Shown here piece by piece: positions 2,626 to 35,382 of a stretch of DNA of 64,000 nucleotides. The DNA is from Candidatus Saccharimonadota bacterium (GTDB taxonomy: Bacteria; Patescibacteriota; Saccharimonadia; Saccharimonadales; Saccharimonadaceae). The notes under the pieces are model-generated. The model saw only the letters and a list, made by a program, of their open reading frames with translations. It had not been told where the DNA came from and searched no databases. The position numbers and the translations under genes are program-made. Positions within the stretch are counted from its first letter, which is position 1; every line of letters starts with the position of its first letter. The stretch is taken from assembly GCA_026395405.1 (NCBI GenBank), contig JAPLYU010000001.1:316696-380695 (forward strand). The letters are read 5' to 3'.

Positions 2626-2654
2626 TTGACCAAACATCACGAATATAGTAGAAT
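2626..2654 (+). promoter_or_regulatory. Promoter of cassette C1
   Basis: TTGACC-N17-TAGAAT; same layout in C2-C5. Confidence 0.7.
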
Positions 2655-2700
2655 ATGCATTAAGTCGTCGAGTATTTTTTAATTTAACTCCGAGGCACAT

Positions 2701-2778
2701 TGACAATCAGATGCTAATTTCATGGGATGGGATTTTTGTATTCAAATTATATTTAATTCGAGAATCCTATCCTATGGG
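2701..2778 (+). ncRNA. Cassette C1 structured leader (5' closing arm plus long leader hairpin)
   Basis: TGACAATCAGATGCT (2701-2715) pairs with 3762-3776; CATGGGATGGGATTTTT / GAGAATCCTATCCTATGGG hairpin. Confidence 0.65.
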
Positions 2779-2805
2779 AAAATGAAACGATTAAGGGAGT
2801 TTACA

Positions 2806-3093
2806 GTGGAAGAGTATCGCTTTATCCTTGGTAAACCCGAGGTAATCGTTCTGGAAAATGGTCGACTTGTCATCAAAGACAGTCTGGCTGTGAGACAGGA
2901 CTGCGAAGAGGTAATATGGCTGGCCAATAGGGACGGCATGGTCCTGATGTCGTTTCCCTTCTACAAGGGGGGGCATCAGCTGAAGCTGGTTGTCTCTCGA
3001 GGCGACAAGTTGGACATGCTTGTACAGCGCATTAATGAAGGACTGTACGAGTTCTCGCCCTTCCCGAACAGCTCACCGTACGCCATCAGGTAA
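2806..3093 (+). CDS. Uncharacterised small protein (cassette gene A1), paralog of 4021-4371; start re-assigned to GTG
   Basis: NGRLVIKD...HQLKLVVSRGDKLDMLVQRI matches A2; GGGAG SD upstream of GTGGAAGAGTATCG aligned with A2 start; the ATG at 2722 lies inside the leader hairpin. Confidence 0.65.
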   Translation: MEEYRFILGKPEVIVLENGRLVIKDSLAVRQDCEEVIWLANRDGMVLMSFPFYKGGHQLKLVVSRGDKLDMLVQRINEGLYEFSPFPNSSPYAIR

Positions 3094-3122
3094 TCCCACA
3101 ACTCCGTGAAAAGGAGAAAATC

Positions 3123-3695
3123 GTGGAACTCGGCAGTGAGGGTAGCTGGATGAGGCACGAACAAGATCTCCGCGACCCCATCACTCTTCCCACCTCAAAG
3201 TTGGTAAGGGAAGACAACCTCGACAGACTCCAGGACATGGGCTTCATCTTCGGCGACTTCGTCGAAGGAAGTGACGAGTACGTACAGTACTCAACATTCC
3301 CTAGGGGGTGGAGCAAAGTTCTGAGCGAAACGGGATACCCGCACAAGCTGTGGTCTCTGGTCGACCCGTCGGGGAACGAAAGAGTCCGTGCGTCCGGTGG
3401 AGATTTCTTTAAGCTTCACTGTGCTACTAGGTTCTACCTCCGAGAGGTGCTGACCCAAGGCGCTAACGCTGTTACGGTTTGGATCATCGACCAAATTACT
3501 GGTCAGCCGACCTACATGTCACAACTCTACCACTATCCACCCTGCTCAGACCGCAACGCCAAACAATGGGACAAGTACGGCGAAGTCGTTTTTACGCCGT
3601 ACGGCTCAGCCTTGGGGTCAGCCTACGATGAGGCGAGGTCTTGGTTGGCAAGATTCCACCCGGAATACCTGAACCCCTGCTCGTACTGGACCTGA
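3123..3695 (+). CDS. Uncharacterised protein (cassette gene B1)
   Basis: 190 aa ORF, SD AAAGGAG, GTG start. Confidence 0.65.
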   Translation: MELGSEGSWMRHEQDLRDPITLPTSKLVREDNLDRLQDMGFIFGDFVEGSDEYVQYSTFPRGWSKVLSETGYPHKLWSLVDPSGNERVRASGGDFFKLHCATRFYLREVLTQGANAVTVWIIDQITGQPTYMSQLYHYPPCSDRNAKQWDKYGEVVFTPYGSALGSAYDEARSWLARFHPEYLNPCSYWT

Positions 3696-3718
3696 CCCGG
3701 CACGGTTACAATATGAAG

Positions 3719-3746
3719 GGTAGCCGGTCGATTAGGACCGGCTACC
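3719..3746 (+). other. Cassette C1 3' hairpin
   Basis: GGTAGCCGGTC-gattag-GACCGGCTACC; T7 run follows after 6 nt. Confidence 0.6.
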
Positions 3747-3777
3747 ATGTGGTTTTTTTCAAGCATCTGGTTGTCAT

Positions 3778-3832
3778 TTCGCTTATTTGAATGCGTATTC
3801 AAACTGATGAGTCCAAAAGGATGAAAAGCGAA
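3778..3832 (+). ncRNA. Type III hammerhead ribozyme HHR1
   Basis: Stem III TTCGCTT/AAGCGAA; H17 = A3785; stem I TTTGAAT-GCGT-ATTCAAA; core CTGATGA; stem II GTCC-AAAA-GGAT; GAAA. Predicted cleavage 3785/3786. Confidence 0.93.
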
Positions 3833-3836
3833 CGGA

Positions 3837-3865
3837 TTGACAAAACATCATATAAATATTACAAT
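3837..3865 (+). promoter_or_regulatory. Promoter of cassette C2
   Basis: TTGACA-N17-TACAAT. Confidence 0.75.
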
Positions 3866-3911
3866 AATAATAACTCGTTGAGTGGTTTTTTGGATTAACT
3901 CCGAGGTACTT

Positions 3912-3987
3912 TGACAAGCAGACATTATTTTCATGGGGTGGGATTTTTTAATTTAACGAAAGTTTAGTTTTAAAATCCTATCCTATG
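3912..3987 (+). ncRNA. Cassette C2 structured leader
   Basis: 5' arm TGACAAGCAGAC pairs with 5190-5200; 16-bp hairpin CATGGGGTGGGATTTT / AAAATCCTATCCTATG. Confidence 0.7.
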
Positions 3988-4020
3988 GGAAGAGAAACAA
4001 CATAAAAGGAGTCTATCGTA

Positions 4021-4371
4021 ATGGAGTATCGACCCCCACTCAAAAAGCCTCTAATTAGACTGGTAAATGGTCGTCTCATCATTGATGACGGCTTTTCCAT
4101 CGAGGAAGTCGCCAGGGATACCCTAGAGTGGACCAAGTACTGCGGCGGCAAGAACGACGTTGACGGTTTCGTAAGGCTCATCCTGCCGTACAAGACGAAG
4201 GAAGAGCACCATCTGAAGCTGGACGTATATCCGGGTGAAACTCTGGATTCGCTAATCCAGCGTATCCGTAAAGCACTGAAGGATGTTACGGGGGTCTACA
4301 GTGATGTAGTCCCTTTTCGACGTAAGACAAGCGACATGCATACATTCCCGTCACTGCTGTTTGGCAGCTGA
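4021..4371 (+). CDS. Uncharacterised small protein (cassette gene A2), paralog of A1
   Basis: NGRLIIDD...HHLKLDVYPGETLDSLIQRI shared with A1; SD AAAAGGAG. Confidence 0.7.
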   Translation: MEYRPPLKKPLIRLVNGRLIIDDGFSIEEVARDTLEWTKYCGGKNDVDGFVRLILPYKTKEEHHLKLDVYPGETLDSLIQRIRKALKDVTGVYSDVVPFRRKTSDMHTFPSLLFGS

Positions 4372-4403
4372 CAATTCACCCCACTAAAAGAAAAGAGGTG
4401 AGA

Positions 4404-5120
4404 ATGCAGGTCCATATAAGTGACCTTGCCAGAGTGGCCGAGGTTCACATGGAGCCGTACGATCGTTTCGACGATCCGTCACTGTTCCCAGAGTTGCTCA
4501 AGTTGGCCAAGGTGGAAGCGGGCCAGCATCCGATGCGCGACAACAGTGTCGTCACTTTCACACTAGGTGGCATCGACGTCAGGGTGACCAGAAGGTCTCC
4601 GGTCTACACGATGGAGCGCGACTATAAGCGCTCCCTACAGGGGTTCACGTACCCCATCGTCGGTCCGACACCCAAGCAGAACCTGTCGAAGGCGGACTAC
4701 AGGAACGACAGCCTCATCGAGGCTGCCAATCTCAGACTGGACGGCGCTCCTGACCTGCAGATTAGGGTCAGGAACACCTGGGAAGAGCCCTTTCTTATGG
4801 GCAAACCTTCAGTCTACGACCGGGCGATGCTGGCATTGTCAACACGCCTTGGGCGCACATTGCAAGACCGGATGGACAGGGGTGAGTTCGATCCGTCGGA
4901 CGCCGACTCCGAGTCTGTCGCCCGGGTGGCGATCCAGACGGGAATGCCAATCATGGAGTTCGACGACGGTTGTCGGCTGTTCAAGTACGCGCTTGAACGG
5001 CTTATGGACGAGTGGGAGTACCGCAACGTCCTAAGGGGCCTGTTCGTCCGTGTCAAGCACTCCAAGCTAGCCCTCGCCGACGTCTACGCCCGGATTCAGT
5101 CCGGACCAGCCACAACCTGA
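4404..5120 (+). CDS. Uncharacterised protein (cassette gene B2)
   Basis: ORF with SD AGAGGTGAG before ATG 4404; GC-rich codon usage. Confidence 0.65.
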   Translation: MQVHISDLARVAEVHMEPYDRFDDPSLFPELLKLAKVEAGQHPMRDNSVVTFTLGGIDVRVTRRSPVYTMERDYKRSLQGFTYPIVGPTPKQNLSKADYRNDSLIEAANLRLDGAPDLQIRVRNTWEEPFLMGKPSVYDRAMLALSTRLGRTLQDRMDRGEFDPSDADSESVARVAIQTGMPIMEFDDGCRLFKYALERLMDEWEYRNVLRGLFVRVKHSKLALADVYARIQSGPATT

Positions 5121-5201
5121 TTCTCCCAAGCGGTGACAGGCAGTCGTTCAGATGAATGACGCCCGCCCCGTCATTCTGTTTCTCTGCGCGTCTGCCTGTC
5201 T

Positions 5202-5256
5202 TTCGCTTTTTTGAATGCGTATTCAAACTGATGAGTCCAAAAGGACGAAAAGCGAA
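5202..5256 (+). ncRNA. Type III hammerhead ribozyme HHR2
   Basis: TTCGCTT / AAGCGAA stem III; H17 = T5209; stem I TTTGAAT-GCGT-ATTCAAA; CTGATGA; GTCC-AAAA-GGAC; GAAA. Confidence 0.93.
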
Positions 5257-5274
5257 CGCAACAGATACGTCTTA

Positions 5275-5303
5275 TTGACAATTTATCGCGTATATGCTAA
5301 AAT
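5275..5303 (+). promoter_or_regulatory. Promoter of cassette C3
   Basis: TTGACA-N17-TAAAAT. Confidence 0.75.
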
Positions 5304-5385
5304 ATAGATAAGCATCGTGTGAGGTTTTTTAAGCACTCCGCGACGCACCTGACAACTCGTTCAAGCACCCCGAAAGGAGCCTGCT

Positions 5386-5799
5386 ATGCCCCCGAGGCCG
5401 AAGATACCGGTGGATTATGACATCACCGTGTATAACCGGGTCGAACCCAACCTCACCAAGGTCAGGGTCAAGTTCGACCAAAGGATCTGCACCGAGCTGA
5501 AGAGGTCGGGCTTTTACCCGGCGAACCTCACTAATGCCGAGCAGATCGACTCCTACGACAGGAAGACTCCTGAGTACAACGGAAAGTTCATGCCGGCCGC
5601 TATGGCTTTGGCTAATGGCCTTCCGGAAGACGGCACCAATGGTGTCCTGAGCGTGGATGCCATCTCGCCGATGATCCTCGAGATTCGCTGCAATTCAGAC
5701 CTGGTCAATATCGGACGATTGGATGACCAGATCGGCAAACTCGTCTGGGAAGTCAACCAAACCGGTTGGCCACCGAGCGATCCGTACGCTTCGGTCTGA
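5386..5799 (+). CDS. Uncharacterised protein (cassette C3 gene)
   Basis: 137 aa ORF, SD AAAGGAG. Confidence 0.65.
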   Translation: MPPRPKIPVDYDITVYNRVEPNLTKVRVKFDQRICTELKRSGFYPANLTNAEQIDSYDRKTPEYNGKFMPAAMALANGLPEDGTNGVLSVDAISPMILEIRCNSDLVNIGRLDDQIGKLVWEVNQTGWPPSDPYASV

Positions 5800-5811
5800 A
5801 CGTCGCAAGAT

Positions 5812-5840
5812 GGGGTAGGGGCTTTCAATCAGCCCTACCC
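5812..5840 (+). other. Cassette C3 3' hairpin
   Basis: GGGGTAGGGGCT-ttcaatc-AGCCCTACCCC, no U-tract. Confidence 0.55.
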
Positions 5841-5895
5841 CTTGCGGGGATGAACGAGTTGTCAAACTCAATGATTTATAAACTAGTGATTATCT

Positions 5896-5924
5896 TGCAA
5901 TTTCACCCCTCTTTCCCTATAATT
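5896..5924 (+). promoter_or_regulatory. Putative promoter of tRNA-Gly(GCC) precursor
   Basis: TTGCAA-N17-TATAAT about 180 nt upstream of the tRNA. Confidence 0.55.
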
Positions 5925-6104
5925 TTTAGAGAATGCGGGTGAGAATTGCCCAGAATGGCAGTTCGCAAGGCCGGAGCCCGGATGACGAACGTCACTGAGT
6001 GAGGCGGGGCTGCGAAAAATTCGGAAGGAATTTTATCGTAGCTAGCTCAGTTAACGTCTCATCCGCAGACAGGCGTCCTTTATTAACAATATTCACACAT
6101 CTAT

Positions 6105-6180
6105 GCGGGTGTAGCTCAGTTGTTAGAGCGCTTCCTTGCCAAGGAAGAGGTCAGGAGTTAGAGTCTCCTTACCCGCACCA
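6105..6180 (+). tRNA. tRNA-Gly (GCC)
   Basis: Cloverleaf, anticodon loop TTGCCAA, encoded CCA; unusual T-loop TTAGAGT. Confidence 0.93.
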
Positions 6181-6199
6181 AACCATTAGCATTATAGTA
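6160..6199 (+). repeat. 40-bp direct repeat copy 1 (tRNA-Gly 3' end), att-like
   Basis: AGAGTCTCCTTACCCGCACCAAACCATTAGCATTATAGTA; second copy at 7304-7343 with one mismatch. Confidence 0.8.
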
Positions 6200-6223
6200 C
6201 GTTAACGGAATATATTCGGAAAT

Positions 6224-6994
6224 ATGGGTAAGCGACTGAGAGTTGTTAGTGATCCTTCTAAGGACGTCGGCCACGAGGCAGGTGCGGTTATTGAGTTTAT
6301 GCAACCTTCCGAAACTCAACTCGGCTCGGTGCTAACAAAACGGCAGATGCACTGGGAACATCACGCCGATGCAGTTACTCAGGCGTACAACAAACTGGAC
6401 TATTTTCAAAACAAGATCTTGCTCACAAAACCAGACACAGGAAACTATCGTCACATAAGAGACGATCGTATATTGGGCAAAATCTATATCTCAGGCTCCG
6501 ACCTGGTCAATCACACTTATCTTCTATATAGGCATCTTTCGCACTGGATTATTTCAACAGTACATGTATGGCCGGATAGCACCCAGGCAGATAAAGACGT
6601 GATGGCCCACTTTGAAAGTAGAACAATTGATTATGAATCACCACTAAATTATGTCGTAAAGGACATCCTAAAGAGAGAAGATTTATTCCAACACAAAGGC
6701 TACGCGTTTATTACTGGAGAGTGGAAGGAAATACGACACGCGCTTTATCATCCAACGCATCAGAATATATATAATTCCTCTCTTGATTTATGGGATAAAG
6801 TTCCAATCGCATGGTTCACGTCTGGGAAGTTCAGAGACCAATACAAAGAAATTGTAGCTTTTCACAATGAACTGATTGAGGGATGGTGTAGTTTACTGCC
6901 CAATTACAAGCGACCTGGCAATATTACAATTACCCATATTGGGGCTACGTCAGAATACCCTTCACAAATCAAGAAGGCTCGGGCCAAGAAGTAG
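6224..6994 (+). CDS. Uncharacterised 256 aa protein inside the tRNA-Gly direct repeats
   Basis: Long ORF; no family recognised. Confidence 0.6.
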   Translation: MGKRLRVVSDPSKDVGHEAGAVIEFMQPSETQLGSVLTKRQMHWEHHADAVTQAYNKLDYFQNKILLTKPDTGNYRHIRDDRILGKIYISGSDLVNHTYLLYRHLSHWIISTVHVWPDSTQADKDVMAHFESRTIDYESPLNYVVKDILKREDLFQHKGYAFITGEWKEIRHALYHPTHQNIYNSSLDLWDKVPIAWFTSGKFRDQYKEIVAFHNELIEGWCSLLPNYKRPGNITITHIGATSEYPSQIKKARAKK

Positions 6995-7303
6995 TTACGT
7001 CTAAAAGTATTGCACTAAGAGCCGCTTGAGTGTATCGGGCGGATAGCGCAGCTGATATTTCAGTTGGGTTAGGTCGTCGTATGTAATCCCGGATTCGCCG
7101 TCCTGGTTCGAGACTCGTCCACTGTCTTGCACCACGAAATAAACTCACCTGATGGTGAGATTTTTTCGTGGTCTGATATTGGAATTTTCTAACTCCTGAC
7201 CTCAGAGGGAAGGAGTGAGACCCGCAAGCCTGCGGGTCGCAAGGAAACCTTCCGATGGCAACTGGTTTGCCAGTCGTGAAGTTTCGGGCCCGCGGAACGT
7301 GGG

Positions 7304-7343
7304 AGAGTCTCCTTACCCGCACCAAACCATAAGCATTATAGTA
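7304..7343 (+). repeat. 40-bp direct repeat copy 2 (displaced tRNA-Gly 3' end)
   Basis: 39/40 identity to 6160-6199. Confidence 0.8.
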
Positions 7344-7416
7344 TGACAGTGCTAGTCTAGGTCCTCATCTATGAATAGACGGAGGGCTTTTCTGTTGCCT
7401 AACGAAGATGACTATA

Positions 7417-7445
7417 TTGACGAATCACTATAATTATCGTACAAT
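7417..7445 (+). promoter_or_regulatory. Promoter of cassette C4
   Basis: TTGACG-N17-TACAAT. Confidence 0.7.
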
Positions 7446-7485
7446 AACATCTAACTTGTTGAGCTGTAATAGTTCCAAGGTACTT

Positions 7486-7556
7486 TGACAAGCAGATATC
7501 AATTCACAAGGTGGGGCCCCCTTGCTGAACAGTCAGCACGGAGATCTCATCTTGTG
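7486..7556 (+). ncRNA. Cassette C4 structured leader
   Basis: 5' arm TGACAAGCAGA pairs with 8068-8078; hairpin CACAAGGTGGGGCCCC / GGAGATCTCATCTTGTG. Confidence 0.65.
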
Positions 7557-7635
7557 TCTCTAACAGAGAGAACACAGCCAAGAGCTTGGCTCCGCTTGGG
7601 AGGCATTTGCCTATGAGAAAGAGAAGGCGGAGCAC

Positions 7636-7974
7636 ATGGTTGAAAGAAGTGGTAGCGACGAGAACAAAGACCCATTTGTGGTACGTTGGGGGACTTACTT
7701 CTACGGTGAAGCGTATCGGTCGGGGTTTGAAATAGACAATTCCGATCCACGGTCTGTCCAGAAGATACACGACGCAAATTACGCAATGCTAGCGTTTTCG
7801 TTGATCGTCTTCCCCGGCATACTGATTGCCTTCATCTTGTTCGTAGTCTTCGCTGGACGTTCACCATGGTGGGCTCTTTTGTGTATGGCGGCTATACCTG
7901 TGTGGTCGGGGCTTGCGATGCTCGTCGGGTGTGTGCTCGAGTGTGTCCACGAGCTTTGTAAACAGCGAAAGTAG
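7636..7974 (+). CDS. Small membrane protein with two predicted TM segments (cassette C4 gene)
   Basis: 112 aa; YAMLAFSLIVFPGILIAFILFVVFA and WWALLCMAAIPVWSGLAMLVGCVL. Confidence 0.65.
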   Translation: MVERSGSDENKDPFVVRWGTYFYGEAYRSGFEIDNSDPRSVQKIHDANYAMLAFSLIVFPGILIAFILFVVFAGRSPWWALLCMAAIPVWSGLAMLVGCVLECVHELCKQRK

Positions 7975-8013
7975 GCGGGACTGCTTACGGCCATGTTTCA
8001 TGGCATACAGCAA

Positions 8014-8046
8014 GCGGGCTAGTCGCAGATTAGCCCGCTTGCTCTC
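8014..8046 (+). other. Cassette C4 3' hairpin
   Basis: AGCAAGCGGGCTA-gtcgcagat-TAGCCCGCTTGCT, no U-tract. Confidence 0.55.
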
Positions 8047-8080
8047 GCCTCTCTGTATTTGTAAATGTCTGCTTGTTATA

Positions 8081-8133
8081 TCGCTTAAATGAATGCGTAT
8101 TCATTCTGACGAGTCCCAAAGGACGAAAAGCGA
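8081..8133 (+). ncRNA. Type III hammerhead ribozyme HHR3
   Basis: TCGCTT/AGCGA stem III; H17 = A8087; stem I AATGAAT-GCGT-ATTCATT (compensatory change); CTGACGA; GTCC-CAAA-GGAC; GAAA. Confidence 0.92.
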
Positions 8134-8139
8134 ATCAAT

Positions 8140-8337
8140 CTAGGCCAAGAACCTCGAATAGTCTTTTAGCGTTTCGGTCGGGTAGCGCAGGCCGTGCTTT
8201 AGGCAAGTGAGTTCTTCAATCGAAACGCCCTCGGACTCTGTTTTGCGACTCCACTTGCGTACTAATATATTAGGAGCACTAGGGCGACGATTTGGACTTC
8301 TTCTGGTGTTCGAGAGTTGTCCCTTTCCGTGCACCAA
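8140..8337 (-). CDS. Small ORF family, copy B (65 aa), function unknown
   Basis: ELTCLKHGLRYPTETLK tail homologous to the minus-strand ORF at about 7013-7137, with mostly synonymous differences. Confidence 0.45.
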   Translation of the reverse strand: MVHGKGQLSNTRRSPNRRPSAPNILVRKWSRKTESEGVSIEELTCLKHGLRYPTETLKDYSRFLA

Positions 8338-8383
8338 ATAAAACCCAGTTCAGTTGGGCTTTTTTATTTTGAAGATATTTAAA

Positions 8384-8412
8384 TTGACAGATAACTATAA
8401 TTATCGTAGAAT
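8384..8412 (+). promoter_or_regulatory. Promoter of cassette C5
   Basis: TTGACA-N17-TAGAAT. Confidence 0.75.
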
Positions 8413-8449
8413 AACACCTATCTTGTTGAGCTGTAATAGCTCCAAGTTC

Positions 8450-8522
8450 ATTGACAAGCAGATATCAATTCACATGGTGGGACCTCTGGATTCAATAGCG
8501 AATTTTGGGGTCTCATCGTGTG
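8450..8522 (+). ncRNA. Cassette C5 structured leader
   Basis: 5' arm ATTGACAAGCAGAT pairs with 9001-9014; 16-bp hairpin CACATGGTGGGACCTC / GGGGTCTCATCGTGTG. Confidence 0.7.
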
Positions 8523-8603
8523 ATTTCTAACAGAGAGACCACAGCCAAGAGCTTAGCTCCGCTTGGGAGGCATTTGCCTATGAGAAAGAAAAGGCGGAGC
8601 ACA

Positions 8604-8696
8604 TGGGGTTCTATGTAGGCATTGTGAGCATGATAGCTATTCTAGTTGTAGGCTTCGCCATCTTCGTCGTAGAGGAGATAAGACGACCACGGTAGA
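8604..8696 (+). CDS. 30 aa single-TM small protein (cassette C5)
   Basis: MGFYVGIVSMIAILVVGFAIFVVEEIRRPR*, aligned with the C4 gene start context GGCGGAGCACATGG. Confidence 0.45.
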
Positions 8697-8741
8697 CTCC
8701 AAAGGAAGGTGAAGTGATGAGCAACGAGGAGGAGCGTACAA

Positions 8742-8924
8742 ATGGAGGATCCTAAGGCGCCGGTCATCATCAACCTGACGACTTGCAACGAGGAATGTCC
8801 GGCGTGCGATTTGCCGACCGGTCATGCCAAGTCGACGAGCGTACGGTGGTGTCATGTCGAGAAGTGGCGCGCGCCTATCGGTCAACCCTGCCCTGTACTG
8901 CAGGCCCGAATGTCGCTGGTCTAA
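8742..8924 (+). CDS. Small Cys-rich protein (cassette C5)
   Basis: CNEECPACDLPTGH motif; ATG preceded by GGAGGAGC. Confidence 0.45.
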   Translation: MEDPKAPVIINLTTCNEECPACDLPTGHAKSTSVRWCHVEKWRAPIGQPCPVLQARMSLV

Positions 8925-9172
8925 TCGTCTCGACACCTTTTCGAAAGGCAGTCTGGTCACAATTCAGACCAGACTGCCTGGCGGCTCTGTGTCATTGATA
9001 ATCTGCTTGTCAATTTTATTTAAAAATTATTTATAAAACTGTTTAATAAAGACTGAAGAAAAACTTATAATTAAATAATATTTTTCTATTTTTGCCAAAT
9101 AGCTTGACTCTGGAAACATAAGGGTATTAAATATAGGCATTAGAGTTTTAAGATAAACATGGGGAAATTAAC

Positions 9173-33138: not shown

Positions 33139-33324
33139 TTTGTAAAAAATACAAAATTATTGTATAAACAAGGTTAGAACCTTGAAAATTTATGGCAGGG
33201 TTGAGGGCGGCATTTTGGGTTTATTTTTAAACCTGAAATGCCGTTTTCAACTACAGGTCAGCCTACCGCAACAGATGCGGACTATTGGCAAACCTGGCGG
33301 CGACACAGGAAGGGGGCGAGCCTA

Positions 33325-34179
33325 ATGGGTAATCCCAAGGCCAGCTTCTACAACATCACCGTGGGTGATGAACTTGCGTTCTTGCGCAACTTAGTGAACG
33401 CAGGGCTCAGCGACAGCGATGTCAAAGACGTGCTGCGCAATCCGATGCTTGCAGAGATGATGGTCAACGTGTTGCATGACGGTAGCCGGTATAGGACACC
33501 GCCATGGTATGTCAGTCCCGCTGGCCAGATCAAGAAGGTCAAACGGTTCGTCAAGCTGAACAGGGCCTACTTCGGCAGTCGCAAGTGGTTCGATGAGTTC
33601 AATGTGATTCCACCGATTCCGAGTATGTTCGAGCCTCGCACGGCGACCGAGGTACTGATGCTTGTCGTCTACTTCCCGTTCAGCCAAGACTCAGGACACG
33701 ACAACCTGAAGTACACGTTCGACGCCTGGTGGAACTTCATCGGCGTGCCCAAGGGCTACGACAAAGCCACCGCATGGGATATCGCGAGGAGCGATTCGAA
33801 TATCCGACTTCACCAGGATGTAAGTCGCTACAGTGGTATCTACTGGGTAGCGTTCGATCCAGGCATAAGCTTTTCGGGCACCATTCTGAATCGATGGCAA
33901 GATGAGAACTGCATCATGGACGACCTGGCGGGACCCGAGGTGTTGATGGCGGCAGCATTGTTCCCAAGGCTGGTCTACAAATGGACCCAGAAGAATGCCT
34001 TGATTCCATGCATGCCGACCATACAGCTGCGGCGAGGCGATGTCTGGGATTGCACTCCGTGCATAGGTGTGGAGTGGCAGCCCATGGCTCCGACGTTGTT
34101 GAAACGAAACGTTCAAAACGCCAGGTACCCAGTAGAGAACCTGTCTCTACCCACAGTACGGCGCCTGCCGCGAATCTAA
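33325..34179 (+). CDS. Uncharacterised protein of cassette C6, paralog of the C7 protein
   Basis: DAWWNFIGVPKGYDKA ... GIYWVAFDP ... AGPEVLMAAALFP; start moved to ATG 33325 because ATG 33238 lies in the leader hairpin. Confidence 0.65.
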   Translation: MGNPKASFYNITVGDELAFLRNLVNAGLSDSDVKDVLRNPMLAEMMVNVLHDGSRYRTPPWYVSPAGQIKKVKRFVKLNRAYFGSRKWFDEFNVIPPIPSMFEPRTATEVLMLVVYFPFSQDSGHDNLKYTFDAWWNFIGVPKGYDKATAWDIARSDSNIRLHQDVSRYSGIYWVAFDPGISFSGTILNRWQDENCIMDDLAGPEVLMAAALFPRLVYKWTQKNALIPCMPTIQLRRGDVWDCTPCIGVEWQPMAPTLLKRNVQNARYPVENLSLPTVRRLPRI

Positions 34180-34243
34180 GGGTTCACAAGTGGTGCCCGG
34201 AGGGTCTTTGAGGATTCATCCTCGGTTCCTCCGGGCACCCAGC

Positions 34244-34289
34244 CCGACATAGTGTTTGACGTATAGTCCGCTGCGTCGGGCTTTTTAAT
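34244..34289 (+). terminator. Cassette C6 terminator with conserved interior
   Basis: CCCGACATAGTGTTTGACGTATAGTCCGCTGCGTCGGGCTTTTT. Confidence 0.65.
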
Positions 34290-34463
34290 TGATTGTAAAA
34301 TTTGTGTAATTATGGTATAAATAATACTAGAACCTTGAAAATCTAGAGTTTTTTGAGGGCGGCGTTTTGTGTTCGGAGGCGAACGCGAAACGCCGTTCTC
34401 AACTGAAGTGAAGACAGGCAACTATGAGTGAGTTGAAATGTCCCGACAGAAAAGGAGCGTTCG

Positions 34464-35105
34464 ATGACACAAAAGGTTATTCGCCCAGGTCTGCTCGGGA
34501 ACCCCGAGCAGCAAGTCGAGAAGTCCAGGGAGTTCTTGAATCAACACGGTGTCGTACGACCCATACCGGACATGCCGGAGTTCACGCCACAGACTATCAG
34601 CGAAGAGCTTCTGCTGGCCACCTACCTGTGCGACAACGATAACGGTGAGGCCTGGCTGCGGACTCTCAAGGCCTGGTGGCGATTCATCAACGCACCCAAG
34701 GGCTTCGTCAAGGCGGAGTGGGAAGGGTATACAGTCGAAGATGATGAGATCAGGCAGATTCCTGGCTACAAGCACCGCTGCGGCATCCGCTGGGTGGCCT
34801 ACGATCCGTTGGCCAACCTTGGCTTTTCGCCGAGGGCGTGTTGGGACAAGCCCGACAGGCATGGTCATCTGGCTGGGATCGAAGTTCTGATGGCTATGGG
34901 TTTGTCCCAGAAGTACGTCAAGAGCTGGGACGACCACACCCCATCGCCCAACATGGCCGGTCTGCAGGTCAGAGAAGAGCAGAATCCCGAAGCTGGGACT
35001 CCATTCGCCTGCAGGGCAGACGAACGCAAGGTGCTCAAGCTGAGCGTCGTCAAGGCCGCAATCACCAGCCCGAACTTCGCGAACCCCACCGTTCGCGAGC
35101 TCTAG
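34464..35105 (+). CDS. Uncharacterised protein of cassette C7, paralog of the C6 protein
   Basis: KAWWRFINAPKGFVKA ... GIRWVAYDP ... AGIEVLMAMGLSQ. Confidence 0.7.
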   Translation: MTQKVIRPGLLGNPEQQVEKSREFLNQHGVVRPIPDMPEFTPQTISEELLLATYLCDNDNGEAWLRTLKAWWRFINAPKGFVKAEWEGYTVEDDEIRQIPGYKHRCGIRWVAYDPLANLGFSPRACWDKPDRHGHLAGIEVLMAMGLSQKYVKSWDDHTPSPNMAGLQVREEQNPEAGTPFACRADERKVLKLSVVKAAITSPNFANPTVREL

Positions 35106-35166
35106 ATCTTCGGTCACAGGTGCCCGGAGGGGCTATGAGGGAAACCTCGCTCCTCCGGGCACTTCG

Positions 35167-35212
35167 CCCGACATTGCGTTTGACGTTCAGTCCGCTGTGT
35201 CGGGCTTTTTAA
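35167..35212 (+). terminator. Cassette C7 terminator with conserved interior
   Basis: CCCGACATTGCGTTTGACGTTCAGTCCGCTGTGTCGGGCTTTTT. Confidence 0.65.
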
Positions 35213-35382
35213 ATTGAAAAAAAATTATTATAAAATAAAAACTTCTTTTAGAAGGTCCGTCCTTCTAAAGAGAGATTATGTTTTATAACATGTCTTACGT
35301 TTGATTGACTATAAGGGTAAAACAGTGTAGAATTGGTCGAGAGTAAAAAACAATTTAAAGATAAGAAAAGGAAATTTTATTT

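Follow-up and report, generated by a model that had tools for sequence, protein, structure and literature searches.

Hammerhead ribozymes were found in bacteria in large numbers in 2011, and their role has been open since. In prophages they flank single genes or short blocks of genes of non-constant identity; cleavage was shown for some of them, gene-length mRNAs were proposed, and circles were sought without success (Perreault et al. 2011, PMC3088659). Here we describe a 64,000-nucleotide (nt) stretch of DNA from a Candidatus Saccharimonadota bacterium, a tiny symbiont (assembly GCA_026395405.1, contig JAPLYU010000001.1, positions 316,696 to 380,695; referred to as the window), in which five cassettes of small genes, C1 to C5, lie in two arrays in the order C1-hammerhead-C2-hammerhead-C3 and C4-hammerhead-C5. 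That hammerheads flank changeable genes is already known from the 2011 work; the new part is the chassis on which these cassettes are built, an mRNA scaffold that is kept while the encoded protein is swapped. In a literature search that took in few subscription papers we found no report of hammerheads in Saccharibacteria or Patescibacteria, and no description of hammerheads combined, in chromosomes of Patescibacteria, with a promoter for each unit, a 5' hairpin and a closing stem that covaries. A first-pass annotation of this DNA had named no described system with this organisation, which stands for the chassis but not for hammerhead-flanked changeable genes (PMC3088659).

Promoter scan, Rfam and folding place the parts of all five units where that annotation had put them (Table 1). 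The promoters are five of the seven top sigma-70 matches of the region, each with a 17-nt spacer and 10-11 of 12 consensus positions matched. A 5' hairpin folds in every unit, usually built of a lower helix, a UU bulge and then the GAG/CTC pairing described earlier. Leader hairpins fold at -27 to -33 kcal/mol in C1, C2, C4 and C5, and C3 alone has none on folding, as had been stated. All five 3' hairpins fold too, and the intrinsic-terminator scan recovers hairpins at the unit ends with no good U-tract except loosely in C1, where seven T lie shortly downstream; with that exception, calling them poor in U-tracts is fair. Over 25 units the mean z is -2.0 for the 5' hairpin, -3.8 for the leader and -2.9 for the 3' hairpin, as compared with -0.7 for control segments from open reading frames (ORFs), and in a whole-transcript shuffle test units C3-C5 reach z -5.7 to -6.7 (ORF C2b alone, -5.4) with native genes at about 0. 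Compared with shuffled sequence, the leader and 3' hairpins stand out by their much greater stability.

The three window hammerheads (E-values 1.3e-4 to 4.7e-6 with RF00008) have an intact CUGANGA...GAAA core, three stems and an NUH triplet at the predicted cut, and score 34.5-39.5 bits, below the Rfam gathering score of 48.5 for this family. They share with Hammerhead_3 (RF00008) the core, the three stems, an open stem III and the NUH cleavage site, and differ from it in having an AAAA-type stem II loop and a UUH triplet instead of GUC. Rfam matches to psRNA2 and mir-5470 in the window lie far below threshold and were dismissed.

The two ends of each unit can be joined by a closing stem, whose 5' arm begins directly after the 5' hairpin and whose 3' arm ends 0-8 nt 5' of ribozyme stem III. 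Pairing between the ends of a message is a known feature of type I toxin mRNAs. With G-U pairs allowed, the stem has no mismatch in C1, C3, C4 and C5; in C2 it is weaker, with an A-C mismatch and a 3' arm that can pair locally with 5135-5152, and the pairing across the gene body claimed for all five units is therefore strong in four of them. For covariation, arms were aligned by their TGACA/TGTCA ends and whole arms were shuffled among units as a control. Among 21 distinct arm pairs, 90% of cells are paired and 55 are double-change cells, as against averages of 72% and 14 in the shuffles, none of which (0/2000) match either observed value. In a comparison of homologous units, C3 and the second unit of an array in the related genome G017, there are two compensated changes (TGACAACTCGTTC to TGACAATCCGTTC, with the 3' arm altered to match), and at stem positions 1-12 G-U pairs outnumber A-C mismatches by 9 to 2, so that the sense RNA strand is the one under selection. 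When whole transcripts are folded, 20 of 24 units have a closing stem with a mean probability of 0.76 or higher. Searching for such stems as gapped duplexes did not discriminate, and ungapped helices with swapped-upstream controls were used instead; in a blind search of this kind 13 of 82 chromosomal non-GUC hammerheads have a helix at p <= 0.0165 where about 1.4 are expected, an excess that is conservative because many units have common arms. The closing stem is conserved by covariation and at a fixed place, and helix searches and arm shuffles alike bear out a terminal duplex beside the predicted ribozyme cut.

We put at about an even chance the proposal that each cassette specifies a self-contained mRNA with its 3' end made by the ribozyme, where present, and its ends paired, giving a stable message. 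Transcription would start from the strong sigma-70-type promoter a few nt before the 5' hairpin, and the message includes the 5' closing arm, in most units a leader hairpin, then one to four ORFs, the 3' hairpin and the 3' arm. The type III hammerhead, where there is one, would cut about 7-15 nt past the 3' arm, so that the message would end in a 2',3'-cyclic phosphate and be freed from downstream RNA; pairing of the arms would then bring both ends into one duplex beside the 5' hairpin, and the resulting panhandle mRNA would be long-lived and resistant to exonucleases. Several observations weigh against this proposal. C2 and C5-type ends show that a perfect stem is dispensable, and so is a ribozyme. 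In C2 the ribozyme carries U at the predicted cleavage position, and U at that position makes a slow substrate. Many other Patescibacteria hammerheads have no closing stem by the blind helix search, and the covariation test is partly circular, as some arms were picked by complementarity, although this is limited by the common TGACA/TGTCA ends and by arm position. Finally, the GC content of the cargo is 54.5% as against 42% in native genes (0.67 against 0.39 at third codon positions, GC3), and the body is richer in GC than its upstream region in 24 of 24 units; this could reflect foreign origin rather than stability, and fits either.

An exact-core pattern finds eight hammerheads in the 855-kb host genome and matches in 20 of the 100 related genomes searched (host included), with 0 matches to a reversed control pattern in both searches; with the Rfam model, 26 of the 100 have hammerheads. 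In a phylum-wide sample the exact core occurs in just 6 of 380 genomes, so that this form occurs mainly in the order to which the window belongs, and the exact arm-plus-ribozyme pattern matches there in the host genome only. In a scan over genomes of 84,980 species, most of the matches listed carry titles of Saccharibacteria or other Patescibacteria. The same RNA frame recurs in about 25 units, the majority of them from Saccharibacteria. In the host the same arm recurs in stand-alone units at C4:308.4k, C4:490.1k and C2:150.2k, which carry a ribozyme, and at C4:1.8k, which does not (labels of this form give contig and position, and are distinct from cassette C4). That only the last unit of an array lacks the ribozyme holds for the window arrays, and the last of the three units in the G017 array likewise has none, but it fails as a rule, since the three stand-alone units just named have one. 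One locus, L333 (G053:C13:5951-7889), holds four hammerheads in a row, spaced about 640 nt apart, whose stem II loops are long and variable and for which the helix test found no closing stem.

The stand-alone units bear on a simpler explanation, in which the ribozyme merely separates messages, as proposed for prophage hammerheads, and the stem is secondary. In prophages, hammerheads indeed flank single genes or short gene blocks, and cleavage of some was seen both in vitro and in E. coli (PMC3088659); in Patescibacteria, many hammerheads come after a hairpin and lack a closing stem. However, the stem covaries and sits at a fixed place, and ribozymes are also found in stand-alone units with nothing to insulate, so that plain insulation seems to us improbable. 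It might also be supposed that cleavage and ligation by the ribozymes give circular or viroid-like RNA, an outcome that the first-pass annotation had raised, as C2 is bracketed by two hammerheads and the closing stem brings the ends together. This is disfavoured, notwithstanding these features: most units come with a single ribozyme and a promoter of their own, there is no sign of ribozymes on both strands, and the circles sought for prophage hammerheads were not found (PMC3088659). The arm-plus-stem pattern found no chassis copy in viral contigs, its matches there being judged chance, and we regard circles as very unlikely. Viral hammerheads in IMG/VR (loci L009-L090) are mostly of the GUC type and lie directly 3' of a palindromic hairpin such as gtgtcttcaaagacac, which often recurs along the contig; those passing the helix test do so due only to one such repeated hairpin, and were discounted.

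A second chassis, missed by the first-pass annotation, may relate the closing stem to translation. In the array on host contig C2 and on contig C1 of G017 the closing stem (GTAAGGAGA.../...TCTCCTTAC) contains the Shine-Dalgarno sequence of the first ORF, and G086 has the same arrangement in a stem of different sequence; by folding, predicted Shine-Dalgarno accessibility falls from about 0.4 to 0 as the stem closes. In two further host units a copy of the 3' arm lies within the loop of the 5' hairpin, where it is possibly an earlier partner for the 5' arm. Stems that contain the Shine-Dalgarno sequence, together with these copies, suggest that some units, at least, have a role in translation, and in the second chassis closing would also shut off translation until the 3' end is removed. 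An alternative to the stable message is therefore a translation lock resembling that of hok and AapA, in which end pairing mainly silences the full-length message, the message is released when its 3' end is trimmed or when a local hairpin competes, and the hammerhead defines the precise 3' end on which locking depends. The copies of the 3' arm could pair first, and the local rival of the C2 3' arm fits such a scheme. In the window chassis, however, the closing stem is upstream of the leader hairpin and its closing barely alters Shine-Dalgarno accessibility, and the cargo does not consist mainly of short toxic peptides; we consider a lock doubtful as the principal role, though well worth entertaining.

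Cargo amounts to one to four small ORFs per unit. An all-against-all comparison gives five related pairs, of which one is a single ORF entered twice; by this comparison the cargo proteins are nearly all unrelated, cargo genes are swapped on a constant frame, and the separation of chassis and cargo holds. C4 and C5 have leader blocks of 76-81 nt at 86-96% identity in front of unrelated cargo, which, with the cargo comparison, agrees with the earlier claim of interchangeable cargo on a conserved RNA scaffold. This common leader (7613-7639, 8580-8606) encodes the basic peptide start MRK(R/K)RRSTW just 5' of the cargo start codon, possibly a leader peptide. Pfam and PHROGs give nothing useful on the window cargo, and the sole clear domain match in other units is a Band_7 protein in L154. 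C2 ORF2 is only 41% identical to its G017 counterpart, as compared with 78% for the neighbouring ddl protein; no relatives of C2 ORF2 were found in viral contigs or phages, and its AlphaFold model is uninformative (predicted local distance difference test, pLDDT, 39). Small Cys-rich cargo occurs at L124 1200-1380, L093 7270-7500, L092 7602-7976 and window 8742-8924, the L124 and L093 proteins being homologous (E 1.6e-11).

Table 1. Parts of cassettes C1 to C5, in coordinates of the 64-kb window; all listed parts are on the + strand (aa, amino acids; P, folding probability).
Feature	Position	Strand	Basis
C1 promoter TTGACC-17-TAGAAT	2626..2654	+	sigma-70 promoter scan
C1 5' hairpin, -3.2 kcal/mol, weaker than in other units	2666..2695	+	folding
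C1 closing stem 5' arm TGACAATCAGATGCT	2701..2715	+	helix search, folding P 0.99, arm shuffles
C1 leader hairpin	2718..2781	+	folding, z -5.5
C1 ORF1, 95 aa, uncharacterised, homologous to C2 ORF1 (E 2.6e-10)	2806..3093	+	ORF, protein comparison
C1 ORF2, 190 aa, uncharacterised	3123..3695	+	Pfam/PHROGs searched
C1 3' hairpin	3719..3746	+	folding, z-score
C1 closing stem 3' arm AGCATCTGGTTGTCA	3762..3776	+	helix search, arm shuffles
C1 type III hammerhead, predicted cut after A3785	3778..3832	+	RF00008, 34.5 bits
C2 promoter TTGACA-17-TACAAT	3837..3865	+	sigma-70 promoter scan
C2 5' hairpin CUCG-UU-GAGU..ACUC-CGAG	3874..3905	+	folding
C2 closing stem 5' arm TGACAAGCAGA, one A-C mismatch	3912..3922	+	repeat comparison, arm shuffles
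C2 leader hairpin	3928..3990	+	folding
C2 ORF1, 116 aa, uncharacterised	4021..4371	+	ORF, protein comparison
C2 ORF2, 238 aa, uncharacterised, orthologue in G017	4404..5120	+	protein comparison, 41% identity
C2 3' hairpin, captures 3' arm locally	5135..5200	+	inverted repeat, folding
C2 closing stem 3' arm GTCTGCCTGTC	5190..5200	+	arm shuffles, folding
C2 type III hammerhead, predicted cut after T5209	5202..5256	+	RF00008, 39.5 bits
C3 promoter TTGACA-17-TAAAAT	5275..5303	+	sigma-70 promoter scan
C3 5' hairpin, -14 kcal/mol	5312..5347	+	folding
C3 closing stem 5' arm TGACAACTCGTTCA	5350..5363	+	inverted repeat 100%, arm shuffles
C3 ORF, 137 aa, uncharacterised	5386..5799	+	Pfam/PHROGs searched
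C3 3' hairpin	5808..5844	+	folding
C3 closing stem 3' arm, no ribozyme after	5851..5864	+	inverted repeat, Rfam scan
C4 promoter TTGACG-17-TACAAT	7417..7445	+	sigma-70 promoter scan
C4 5' hairpin CUUG-UU-GAGCU..AGUUC-CAAG	7455..7479	+	folding
C4 closing stem 5' arm TGACAAGCAGATAT	7486..7499	+	folding P 0.98, arm shuffles
C4 leader hairpin	7505..7557	+	folding, z -3.5
C4 leader block, 81 nt, 96% identical to C5, ends at cargo start codon	7559..7639	+	direct repeat
C4 ORF, 112 aa, probable membrane protein	7636..7974	+	sequence
C4 3' hairpin	8009..8043	+	inverted repeat, z -6.2
C4 closing stem 3' arm ATGTCTGCTTGTTA	8065..8078	+	arm shuffles
C4 type III hammerhead, predicted cut after A8087	8080..8134	+	RF00008, 35.8 bits
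C5 promoter TTGACA-17-TAGAAT	8384..8412	+	sigma-70 promoter scan
C5 5' hairpin	8422..8446	+	folding
C5 closing stem 5' arm ATTGACAAGCAGAT	8450..8463	+	inverted repeat 100%
C5 leader hairpin, -33 kcal/mol	8470..8523	+	folding
C5 short ORF, 30 aa, hydrophobic, begins where common C4/C5 leader ends	8603..8695	+	read from sequence
C5 ORF, 60 aa, Cys-rich, uncharacterised	8742..8924	+	ORF, domain search
C5 3' hairpin	8946..8979	+	folding
C5 closing stem 3' arm, no ribozyme after	9001..9014	+	inverted repeat

The genomic setting raises a further possibility. tRNA-Phe and tRNA-Gly, which enclose array C1-C3, are 4.7 kb apart in the window, 3.6 kb in G017 and 12 bp in G016 and G008, and the block made up of a lysozyme-like gene and array C1-C3 is therefore an insertion; insertions here are flanked by tRNA-end repeats. 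The arms might on this account act at the DNA level, as inverted repeats at the termini of a mobile element or as its sites of recombination. However, they lie inside the promoter and before the ribozyme rather than at the unit ends, their G-U pairing is strand-specific, no integrase is nearby (the two integrase genes of the genome are both distant from the units), and the insertions are marked by the tRNA-derived repeats and not by the arms, which makes this the least likely of the explanations considered.

The lysozyme-like gene (1740-2504) is GC-rich, has a structured leader and a secreted lysozyme/transglycosylase-like product, and is conserved in G017, where it immediately precedes the array. 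The tRNA-Gly 3' end, together with its flank (6160-6199), is repeated at 98% 1.1 kb downstream (7304-7343), framing a 256-aa ORF, a pair that we read from its sequence as an integration footprint. At 1355-1452, and at the tRNA-Gly of L250, a terminator hairpin comes after the tRNA gene and, beyond it, an inverted copy of the tRNA 3' half, giving palindromic tails, and at 7013-7190 and 8140-8370 a remnant-like minus-strand gene end is followed by tRNA-3'-end-like sequence (GTTCGAGACTCGTCC...CACCA). Elsewhere, L092 7100-8220 is a stand-alone unit between two repeats derived from the 3' end of tRNA-Val (GACCGAGCCCCCGCC...CTCAGCGCCC), and in G017 typA directly follows tRNA-Val. Further along the window (33140-35215) are two tandem GC-rich units with ORFs at 33238-34179 and 34464-35105, which have in common a structured leader of another kind (TAGAACCTTGAAAAT..., hairpin GGGCGGC/GCCGTT); their trailers are almost identical and close with an ordinary intrinsic terminator (CCCGAC..GTCGGGCTTTTT), and the pair represents another type of cassette in the host genome.

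As the hammerheads described here are part of a recurrent, covarying mRNA architecture, they suggest a concrete role that reporters can test, that of making a defined 3' end beside a closing stem, and they point to unusual mRNA handling in Saccharibacteria. Returning to the stable paired message, we would go further only tentatively, to the possibility of a new genetic element with a conserved mRNA architecture (cap-like 5' hairpin, panhandle stem, leader hairpin and ribozyme-made 3' end), on which unrelated cargo would be exchanged within Saccharibacteria as stored or locked mRNAs that outlive transcription. The likeness to the prophage blocks lies in hammerheads on both sides of changeable genes, as in C1-hammerhead-C2-hammerhead-C3 with its changed cargo; unlike those blocks, each unit has a promoter to itself, a 5' hairpin that is conserved, a closing stem formed over a long range and, in most cases, a leader hairpin, and the units lie in Patescibacteria chromosomes rather than in recognisable prophages, with no integrase nearby. 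Viroid-like circular RNAs and retrozymes have ribozymes at both ends of the monomer or on both strands, whereas most units here have a single one. The hok and AapA type I toxin mRNAs likewise have long-range 5'-3' pairing, 3'-end processing and rival local hairpins near the 5' end, but here the 3' end would be set by a predicted ribozyme, and in place of a single short toxic membrane peptide the cargo ORFs are mostly 60-354 aa, diverse and non-toxin-like, with the 30-aa ORF of C5 as the exception. Integron cassette arrays are likewise arrays of small interchangeable genes of mostly unassigned function; whereas their cassettes are promoterless and depend on attC and an integrase, those described here have their own promoters and no integrase nearby, and their conserved part is the structure of the mRNA.

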